Source of the DNA: Azospira oryzae
GTDB taxonomy: Bacteria; Pseudomonadota; Gammaproteobacteria; Burkholderiales; Rhodocyclaceae
Assembly (NCBI RefSeq): GCF_004217225.1
Contig: NZ_SHKM01000001.1
Coordinates: 1,030,137 to 1,094,136, forward strand
DNA length: 64,000 nt
Direction: 5' to 3'
Shown: positions 25,994 to 27,666 of the stretch, one piece after another
How the letters are laid out: each line of letters begins with the position of its first letter
How positions within the stretch are numbered: the first letter of the stretch is position 1
Notes under the pieces: generated by a model
What the model was told of the DNA's origin: nothing
What the model saw: the letters and a program-made list of their open reading frames with translations, nothing else
Databases searched by the model: none
Position numbers and translations under genes: made by a program

Positions 25994-26863
25994 CTAGGCC
26001 AGACGCCGCCCCAGGGGCTGGGGCACGGGCACCGGGCGGCCGTCGTAGCCCACCGCCACCATGATGAAGCGGCCCCGGGTGCACAGCCGGCGCTGGCCGG
26101 TGAGCAGGGCCTCGGCGTGCAGCAGCACTTCCACCGTCATGGAACTGTTGCCGATGGCCACCACCCGGGCCGCCAGGTCGGCGATCTCCCCCTCCAGCAC
26201 CGGCGCATGGAAGTCGATGCGCTCGGAAGCGGCCATCACCACCGGCATGCGGGCCTGGCGGCTGGCCGCCACCATGGCCGCCTTGCCCAGCCAGGCCAGG
26301 GCCTGGCCGCCGAAGAGGCTGCCGTGGTGGTTGGTATGGCCGGGAAAGACCATCTCCACCATGGCCGTCACCGGGCCGATGCCGGGCAGCTGGGCGAAGC
26401 TCTCGTCGTCCTCCTGCAGCGGCGCCCCTGGACCGTCCACCGCCACCAGGGTGAAGTGGGCGGTGGCGCTGGTCTCCCTCAGCCCGGTGGCCAGGTCCTC
26501 CGCCGCCAGGGCCACCTCCACCTGCACCGAGCGCCGGCCCCGCTGCACCACCCGGCCGGACAGTTCCACCAGGCGCCCCTGGGGAATGGGCTTGCGGAAG
26601 TCGATGCGGCCGCTGCTGGCGGTGACCATGGGCCGGCGGGTCTCCCGGGTGGCCACCAGGAAGGCCAGTTTGTCCATCATGGCCATGGCGGAACCGCCGA
26701 AGAGGGTGCCGTGGTGGTTCACCTGTTCGGGGAAGACCACGTCCACCATGAGGGTGGCCTGCTGCTGCCGCGGCGAAGTGGATGAAGTGGGGGCGGGATT
26801 GGCTTCTACGGGCTGGACGGCCGTCCCCACGACGGCGCCGATTTCCATTGCTTCCATGCGCAT
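25994..26863 (-). CDS. Acyl-CoA thioesterase with two hotdog domains
   Basis: 289 residues containing two tandem copies of the YciA/ACOT hotdog fold. Each begins with the characteristic P-x-x-x-N-HHG-x-LFGG pattern (NHHGTLFGG in the first, NHHGSLFGG in the second). Double-hotdog acyl-CoA thioesterases hydrolyse acyl-CoA to free acid and CoA. The ATG at 26863 was chosen because CAAGGAG lies 6 bases upstream; longer versions start in low-quality sequence. It is the first substantial gene downstream of a minus-strand cobalamin riboswitch (27042-27235), an unexpected regulatory context. Confidence 0.88.
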   Translation of the reverse strand: MRMEAMEIGAVVGTAVQPVEANPAPTSSTSPRQQQATLMVDVVFPEQVNHHGTLFGGSAMAMMDKLAFLVATRETRRPMVTASSGRIDFRKPIPQGRLVELSGRVVQRGRRSVQVEVALAAEDLATGLRETSATAHFTLVAVDGPGAPLQEDDESFAQLPGIGPVTAMVEMVFPGHTNHHGSLFGGQALAWLGKAAMVAASRQARMPVVMAASERIDFHAPVLEGEIADLAARVVAIGNSSMTVEVLLHAEALLTGQRRLCTRGRFIMVAVGYDGRPVPVPQPLGRRLA

Positions 26864-26991
26864 GCGCAACTCCTTGGATGAAGCGGAGCGGGAGCATCGG
26901 AGAAGGGCGAACACCCCGGGCCGCGGCAAAGCGGCTCGGAGCGGCAGGCAGCCGAGAGCGGACAACGATGACAGTCAGGGAATGCGCGCAT
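26806..26991 (-). CDS. Possible small Cys-rich protein after cobalamin riboswitch
   Basis: 61-residue frame, the first ATG after the minus-strand riboswitch, preceded by GAGG 7 bases upstream. Its N-terminal half has cysteines at 7, 10, 16, 22 and 27 (CHRCPLSAAC is reminiscent of metal- or Fe-S-binding motifs), with two more at 42 and 44. It overlaps the thioesterase start by 58 bases in another frame, which argues against it. It may be a chance frame; listed because it is the nearest candidate target of the riboswitch. Confidence 0.25.
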   Translation of the reverse strand: MRAFPDCHRCPLSAACRSEPLCRGPGCSPFSDAPAPLHPRSCACAWKQWKSAPSWGRPSSP

Positions 26992-27041
26992 TTACCTTCC
27001 TCAGGGGACACCCCGCCCCAATTAGGATTGATATGAAGTAA

Positions 27042-27235
27042 TGCCGCGGCAGGTCTCCTGACTTGCGGGTCGTCACGTTGCGCCAGCCTTCCCGGCAGTA
27101 TCGCCAGTGGCAAAGAGTGGAGCGCAACGCTCGCCGCCTACAGTTGCGGGGGCAGTTCCGGACTGGAGTCAGGGCGTCGCCGCCCTGTCTCGCACCGGAT
27201 TCCCTTTTCATCCCCTGGAGGGGGGAACCGAAGCG
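27042..27235 (-). promoter_or_regulatory. Cobalamin (B12) riboswitch, minus strand
   Basis: Read on the minus strand, the aptamer landmarks appear in order: GATGAAAAGGGAATCCGGTG near 27215-27195, the CTGCCCCCGCAACTGTA junction core, the GCCACTG B12-box element near 27115, GGGAAGGC, and the closing CAGGAGACCTGCC near 27060-27045. This is the classical AdoCbl aptamer. Downstream on the minus strand lie a small Cys-rich frame (26991) and the acyl-CoA thioesterase (26863), not a usual cobalamin gene. A GGGG-TGT-CCCC hairpin shortly after the aptamer may belong to the expression platform. Confidence 0.92.
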
Positions 27236-27240
27236 GGGCC

Positions 27241-27269
27241 AGTCTAACCCGCCCCGACCGATTCGCCAA
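27241..27269 (-). promoter_or_regulatory. Probable promoter of the minus-strand riboswitch
   Basis: On the minus strand TTGGCG (27269-27264), a 17-base spacer and TAGACT (27246-27241) end a few bases before the aptamer begins, which is the expected distance for a riboswitch transcript. Confidence 0.45.
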
Positions 27270-27291: not shown

Positions 27292-27321
27292 TTGCCCAGC
27301 CCGGGGGGAGTGGGCTATCAT
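27292..27321 (+). promoter_or_regulatory. Probable promoter of the cobalamin operon
   Basis: TTGCCC (27292-27297), an 18-base spacer and TATCAT (27316-27321), ending 12 bases before the plus-strand aptamer. The same TTGCCC -35 hexamer occurs at the predicted rnf promoter. Confidence 0.45.
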
Positions 27322-27333
27322 CCGCCCCGATTC

Positions 27334-27516
27334 AGGTGCCGTGCCTCGCGCTCTGCGGGGACGGTGAAACGGGAAGCCGGTGACTCCAGGGACCACCCAG
27401 GATAGTCCGGCGCAGCCCCCGCTGCTGTAAGCCAGACGACGCTGCCTCACGCCACTGTGGTTCATCACGGGAAGGCCGGCAGGGAAGGATGAAGGCAAGC
27501 CAGAAGACCGGCCTGA
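27334..27516 (+). promoter_or_regulatory. Cobalamin (B12) riboswitch upstream of cbiM
   Basis: Conserved elements in order: AGGTGCC start, GGTGAAACGGGAAGCCGGTG (27363-27382), the CCGGCGCAGCCCCCGCTGCTGTAA core, GCCACTG (27451-27457), GGGAAGGCC, and the closing AGCCAGAAGACCGGCCTG. It should repress cbiMNQO and the downstream corrin genes when adenosylcobalamin is plentiful. The rest of the leader to 27666 contains no gene; it holds a CCGCCTCCT stretch that could pair with ribosome-site purines. Confidence 0.95.
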
Positions 27517-27666
27517 CATCACAAGTTGCACCATTCCCCGGGGTGACGGGAACGGTTCTGGTGATTTGCCGCCTCCTCGCTGTTCCATCCGCCGCGGCCC
27601 TTTATCCGACCTGCCACAACTCCCCCGCCTGGTGCGCCACCGTCATGCTCGCCGAGGGAGAGACTC

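Follow-up and report, generated by a model that had tools for sequence, protein, structure and literature searches.

What is a cobalamin riboswitch doing in front of an acyl-CoA thioesterase gene? Genes of the cobalamin regulon have been sorted into synthesis, transport of B12 or its precursors, cobalt transport, and isozymes of B12-dependent enzymes (Sun et al. 2013, PMC3766115), and the word "thioesterase" is absent from the main text of that paper. We analyzed a 64,000-nucleotide stretch of the Azospira oryzae genome (contig NZ_SHKM01000001.1, positions 1,030,137 to 1,094,136; here called the window), in which a minus-strand cobalamin riboswitch lies in front of a gene for a double-hotdog acyl-CoA thioesterase (TE). 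Features of the locus are collected in Table 1.

A preliminary description of the window had placed a complete aptamer on the minus strand at 27042-27235. The Rfam covariance model search recovered it over the full length of RF00174 at 27247-27031 (128.2 bits, E 7e-32, cut-off 31.5). The L5 block GCCCCCGC did not vary across 20 aligned riboswitches, and 60 of 61 TE-associated leaders carried an L13 loop of the form CGGGGYGY in a short stem. The inner four pairs of this stem, P13, were retained in 58 to 60 of 60 leaders with G-C/C-G exchanges; the third pair had turned from G-C to C-G in 18 of the 60, and A-U and G-U occurred at other pairs, the exchanges being compensatory. The fold energy of the leader was not unusual (z 1.49). 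The P13 hairpin abuts the Shine-Dalgarno sequence of a small leader open reading frame (ORF), an arrangement also found in Rhodocyclaceae and Parvibaculum. With its full-length aptamer, L5/L13 complementarity, and P13 beside a ribosome-binding site, the window RNA resembles the class I riboswitches of RF00174, which form an L5-L13 kissing loop; it does not itself differ from known cobalamin riboswitches, and only its target gene is unusual.

The riboswitch had also been credited with a promoter-like sequence of its own. A TTGAC-N17/18-TAnnnT motif occupies the corresponding position in most Rhodocyclaceae orthologues, but the window element (27269-27241) fell under the threshold of a generic promoter scan. 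Generic promoter and terminator scans of the minus strand of the window returned no match and no intrinsic terminator-like site.

Table 1. Features of the riboswitch-TE locus (window coordinates)
Feature	Position	Strand	Basis or remark
Promoter-like TTGGCG-N17-TAGACT	27241..27269	-	Sequence; directly upstream of aptamer
Class I cobalamin riboswitch aptamer	27031..27247	-	RF00174, model 1-189 complete
L5 loop CCCCGC	27146..27151	-	Sequence; complementary to L13 GCGGGG (27016-27011)
P13/L13 hairpin GGGG-CGGGGTGT-CCCC, expression platform	27004..27019	-	Leader comparison and predicted fold
Shine-Dalgarno GAGGAAGG of leader ORF	26995..27002	-	Sequence; abuts P13
Leader ORF, 61 codons (Cys-rich frame of the preliminary description)	26806..26991	-	Overlaps TE start
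TE Shine-Dalgarno AAGGAG	26870..26875	-	Sequence
Double-hotdog acyl-CoA thioesterase (TE), 289 aa	25994..26863	-	Pfam 4HBT twice; 2GVH
Second, divergent cobalamin riboswitch	27317..27530	+	RF00174, 108.4 bits; not part of TE unit

The assignment of the first normal-sized gene downstream, starting at 26863, as a double-hotdog acyl-CoA thioesterase agrees with our searches. Pfam PF03061 (4HBT) matches the protein twice (E 3e-30), and a single-sequence phmmer search aligned 254 residues with PDB entry 2GVH (E 2e-60, 207 bits); at the level of a family profile the match to 2GVH reached E 6e-109. The AGGAG preceding the gene is kept in the closest orthologues. 2GVH is the structural genomics structure of Agrobacterium tumefaciens AGR_L_2016p, which matches TE over its full length and yet is a clearly diverged relative; it has been classed as an acyl-CoA thioesterase forming a trimer of double hotdogs, within a fold family of varied specificity (PMC2698920). 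We came across no description of 2GVH as B12 regulated and no test of its function. In Agrobacterium, the gene for an orthologue with 86% identity to 2GVH is found beside mesX/mesD, 165 nt downstream of a cobalamin riboswitch.

TE shares the hotdog fold and an Asp/Asn catalytic pair with ACOT7/BACH and YciA (HI0827), although it scored 72.8 bits against the cut-off of 162 of the YciA equivalog model NF007970. An Asp in the helix of the N-terminal half (Asp64 in the window TE) is invariant in 18 of 18 aligned members, whereas the Asp of the C-terminal half is replaced in all 18 (Gly193 in the window TE); the position of Asn178 in the C-terminal half holds Asn in 16 of the 18 and Ser or Asp in the others. 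ACOT7 pairs Asp213 with Asn24, with one Asp per double hotdog (PMC2698920). By analogy, Asp64 and Asn178 are predicted to form the catalytic pair, which would give one active site per chain, with the halves in the opposite order: the Asp of TE lies in the N-terminal half and the Asn in the C-terminal half, the reverse of ACOT7.

The riboswitch-TE order is conserved well beyond this genome, a point on which the preliminary description had wanted its reading checked. In Azospira sp. I13, kdpABC and kdpDE, a riboswitch, TE, a second riboswitch, and nrdAB follow one another, so that the unit is intact at another chromosomal place, next to kdp and nrd genes and not cbiM. A third Azospira genome had neither the unit nor a TE orthologue. 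A search of 399 genomes of the family added ten double-hotdog orthologues, nine of them with a riboswitch directly upstream; the order thus holds in 11 of the 12 Rhodocyclaceae genomes that have a double-hotdog TE. More distant, plasmid-borne homologues in Azospira sp. I09, Sphingomonas NY01, Sinorhizobium medicae, and Comamonadaceae OS-4 likewise have a riboswitch directly upstream. The Azospira sp. I09 plasmid carries TE-nrdA-nrdD-nrdG-nrdB beside btu genes, and plasmids of Shinella and Ensifer carry riboswitch-metE-TE followed by nrdHIEF, with one riboswitch for metE and TE.

For a wider sample, we scanned one genome per species with an alignment profile (a scan of genome contigs with the single protein gave no relatives, and the alignment was required) and obtained 435 TE relatives; the analysis went on with the best 80. 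Riboswitches at these 80 loci, about 8 of them in genomes already covered by the earlier searches, were sought with a covariance model built from TE riboswitches. These best 80 of 435 homologues, from Alpha- and Betaproteobacteria, were linked to a riboswitch in 67 cases; the profile was built mostly from riboswitch-linked members, and the remaining homologues may be linked less often. In 40 of the 80, a same-strand riboswitch lay directly upstream (18 to 315 nt; median, 189), and in 27 TE stood in an operon behind a riboswitch: 18 with metE, 8 with the DUF1852-core MetE, which is MesX-MesD (Price et al. 2021, PMC7857596), and 1 with nrdAB. One further locus (L162) had a weak riboswitch and metE remnants. 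The other 12 of the 80 had no riboswitch in view; some of them lie on contigs that end early, and one locus (L120) is cut off upstream of metE. By chance, a same-strand riboswitch would fall within 650 nt of about 0.07% of genes. Single-hotdog homologues served as a control, and 0 of 28 were riboswitch-linked; at 13 loci with single-hotdog relatives, mostly propionate operons, three riboswitches were present, all belonging to other genes. The contrast between 67 of the best 80 and 0 of 28 indicates that TE belongs to the B12-starvation regulon, and its neighborhoods include metE, mesX-mesD, nrdAB, nrdDG, nrdHIEF, and btu genes.

Two side observations were made during this search. A small gene for a GNAT-type acetyltransferase directly follows TE at 12 loci (for example, L092, 5731-6204), apparently in one operon. 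Two TE genes of proteobacterial type were found under other names, one with a riboswitch and nrd genes in an assembly titled Thermoflexus MAG and one in Bacillus subtilis SK6B4; these sequences are probably misbinned or contaminated.

Between the hairpin and TE lies the Cys-rich leader ORF, whose 3' end extends 58 nt into the TE gene. Leader starts located 5 to 19 nt after the hairpin loop were found at 17 Rhodocyclaceae and Parvibaculum loci. At 15 of these 17 the frame is open up to the TE start, versus 7.3 expected (P 8e-5), in a statistic whose loci are nonindependent and whose start rules are our own; the count is approximate, since at one locus the frame from the chosen start counts as open only if a different TE start is assumed. 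When each genus was represented by a single locus, 10 of 11 leaders were open (P 0.002). The open leaders use different frames and encode unrelated peptides, and some are fused in frame to TE. Burkholderiales and sphingomonads had no leader start, so that a coupling step involving the leader would be lineage specific and not general.

We propose that the class I riboswitch represses TE under ample B12 and lifts this repression under B12 shortage. The comparative evidence suggests that bound cobalamin would let L5 kiss the L13 hairpin that abuts the leader ribosome-binding site. The leader would then go untranslated, which would keep ribosomes from the overlapping TE start, and Rho-dependent termination within the GC-rich untranslated leader may contribute; when B12 is absent, ribosomes would traverse the leader and start TE. 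On the same comparative grounds, TE would be a regular B12-starvation gene alongside those for MetE, MesD/MesX, NrdAB, NrdDG, and NrdHIEF. As deduced from sequence comparison, the L5-L13 step, membership in this gene set, and repression by B12 are jointly very probable. TE shares its regulation, operons, and neighborhoods in many genomes with the B12-independent isozymes under cobalamin riboswitches (metE, nrdAB, and nrdDG), but it repeats no reaction of a B12 enzyme and would instead relieve a consequence of B12 shortage. A place among the isozymes was considered for TE and rejected; by family match it is a 4HBT thioesterase, and we know of no B12 enzyme that hydrolyzes thioesters.

Strong support for control of TE by the riboswitch, as the preliminary description supposed, comes from conservation of the pairing in different genera and classes and from a unit that stays intact when its genomic place changes. 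Two other accounts of the locus were weighed against this. Back to back with the TE riboswitch, the second riboswitch of Table 1, on which the preliminary description was silent, precedes a cbiM-cbiQ-cbiO-cobM-cbiX-cbiC-cbiD operon (CbiM, CbiQ, CobM/CbiF, and CbiD were identified by NCBIfam), and the minus-strand element might accordingly be an orphan, left over from the divergent cobalamin operon or from a lost B12 gene and beside TE by chance. Yet the pairing persists away from cbiM in Azospira sp. I13 and recurs in 9 of the 10 further orthologues and in most of the best distant homologues, and relatives in which the riboswitch is followed by a B12 gene lost here were sought and not found. 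The TE aptamer is also closer to the Azospira sp. I13 TE aptamer (94.9% identity) than to any other of the seven cobalamin riboswitches (RF00174) of its own genome (66 to 79%). An orphan riboswitch is thus extremely improbable. Scarcely more credible is a functional peptide from the Cys-rich frame (26991-26806) as the real target, which the preliminary description had offered as its alternative. This frame owns the ribosome-binding site abutting P13, and comparable leader starts recur in Rhodocyclaceae and Parvibaculum, but it has no Pfam match and neither its sequence nor its frame is conserved. Between the window and Azospira sp. I13, identity is 94.9% in the aptamer, 96.1% in the platform, and 83% in the TE gene, but 81%, with gaps, in the leader; a one-base deletion shifts the Azospira sp. 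I13 leader frame, so that the two peptides have only MRAFPD in common and the Cys pattern is lost. The unrelated or fused leaders of other loci, and their absence from Burkholderiales and sphingomonads, point the same way. The leader ORF is probably a translational coupling leader and not a conserved or functional peptide.

With TE itself taken as the target, what would the enzyme act on? Propionyl-CoA can be used through the methylcitrate cycle, which is B12 independent, or through methylmalonyl-CoA mutase (MCM), which is B12 dependent. BACH-type thioesterases often take long-chain acyl-CoAs, which weighs against short-chain substrates for TE. The nearest single-domain relatives of the window TE are single-hotdog thioesterases of prpC/prpB methylcitrate operons in Paracoccus, Cereibacter, and Rhodocyclaceae, the closest being 53 to 57% identical to the C-terminal half of TE. 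They head TE-prpD-prpC-prpB operons in Paracoccus and Cereibacter; at six Rhodocyclaceae loci they accompany prpC, prpF, and prpB, and the order TE-prpC-...-prpF-prpB occurs. Magnetospirillum fulvum has a single-hotdog TE-prpB-prpC arrangement with a double-hotdog TE and metE a few genes away. These relatives differ from the window TE in having one domain and no upstream riboswitch, and they are often divergent from a gene for a short-chain acyl-CoA regulator. One locus mixes the B12-independence and methylcitrate neighborhoods (L170, 1-11001): a single-hotdog TE lies between riboswitch-driven nrdAB and metE-metR and adjoins prpB and prpF.

The place of these relatives in methylcitrate operons makes freeing CoA from propionyl- or methylmalonyl-type esters the likeliest role. 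TE may hydrolyze propionyl-CoA, methylmalonyl-CoA, or comparable short, branched acyl-CoAs that build up while AdoCbl-dependent mutases stand idle, and so release CoA during B12 shortage; we give this, read from gene context, a little short of an even chance. The preliminary description had likewise suggested a pathway with a B12-dependent step such as methylmalonyl-CoA metabolism, a possible setting that fits the neighborhoods. Of 48 genomes with TE, 46 encode MCM-family mutases, this one having two copies, but such mutases are about as common in relatives lacking TE (11 of 13), so that co-occurrence does not discriminate and the propionyl-/methylmalonyl-CoA assignment draws on context. Both MCM-less TE genomes are Pseudochrobactrum (L147 and L162); both have a true PrpB, and the TE riboswitch is lost in L147 and weak in L162, possibly decaying after B12 dependence was lost. 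A prpB gene accompanied an absent or decayed TE riboswitch in 5 of 6 cases versus 12 of 42 otherwise (Fisher P 0.017), a post hoc comparison that serves as a lead only. Separation by the prpB model is poor, given the low scores of isocitrate lyases and a PrpB of prpF operons that falls under the cut-off, and the prpD model does not suit these Betaproteobacteria.

TE might instead be B12 controlled for another purpose: broad CoA recycling, adjustment of other acyl-CoA pools, or a step tied to methionine or folate shortage, and not propionyl-CoA. Propionate genes are in fact not its commonest neighbors; methionine synthases and ribonucleotide reductases are. The other pools could be substrates of isobutyryl- or ethylmalonyl-type mutases or membrane acyl-CoAs, and IcmF-type mutases are also common among TE-bearing genomes; specificity varies within the fold family (PMC2698920). 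Against this stand the methylcitrate operons of the nearest single-domain relatives. As for a methionine or deoxynucleotide role, we know of no thioesterase step in either synthesis. Such another purpose is possible, if somewhat doubtful. Returning to hydrolysis of propionyl-type esters, a dedicated B12-starvation thioesterase of Alpha- and Betaproteobacteria that clears methylmalonyl- and propionyl-CoA when B12-dependent mutases stop is a tentative reading that could prove right.

In human B12 deficiency, methylmalonate is released, and TE would, if that reading is true, be a bacterial counterpart of this release. Damage relief would then be a functional class new to the cobalamin regulon, distinct from isozymes, importers, and biosynthesis genes. 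Neither the ordinary riboswitch nor the enzyme family, which has a known structure, is novel; what appears new is their link and its breadth, and the role of TE would be new to the regulon. In the literature searched, which included few subscription journals, we found no report linking a thioesterase to B12 or to a cobalamin riboswitch, although supplementary tables and regulon databases may list one. With this link, a widespread gene outside the synthesis, transport, and isozyme groups joins one of the best-studied riboswitch regulons, and the thioesterase family whose solved structure is 2GVH acquires a physiological setting. The link raises the testable question of how bacteria deal with acyl-CoAs that lie upstream of methylmalonyl-CoA mutase once B12 is exhausted, and it could lead to better annotation of several hundred proteins named "acyl-CoA thioesterase" or "hotdog domain-containing protein."

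The five remaining cobalamin riboswitches of this genome precede nrdA, two TonB receptor genes, bluB, and the radical SAM gene cbpB. The last of these (C2:640152-640352; L007, 1501-3200) stands before the gene for a peptide-modifying radical SAM enzyme, CbpB, which matches TIGR04163 ("rSAM_cobopep") with 656 bits and places a modified-peptide system under B12 control.
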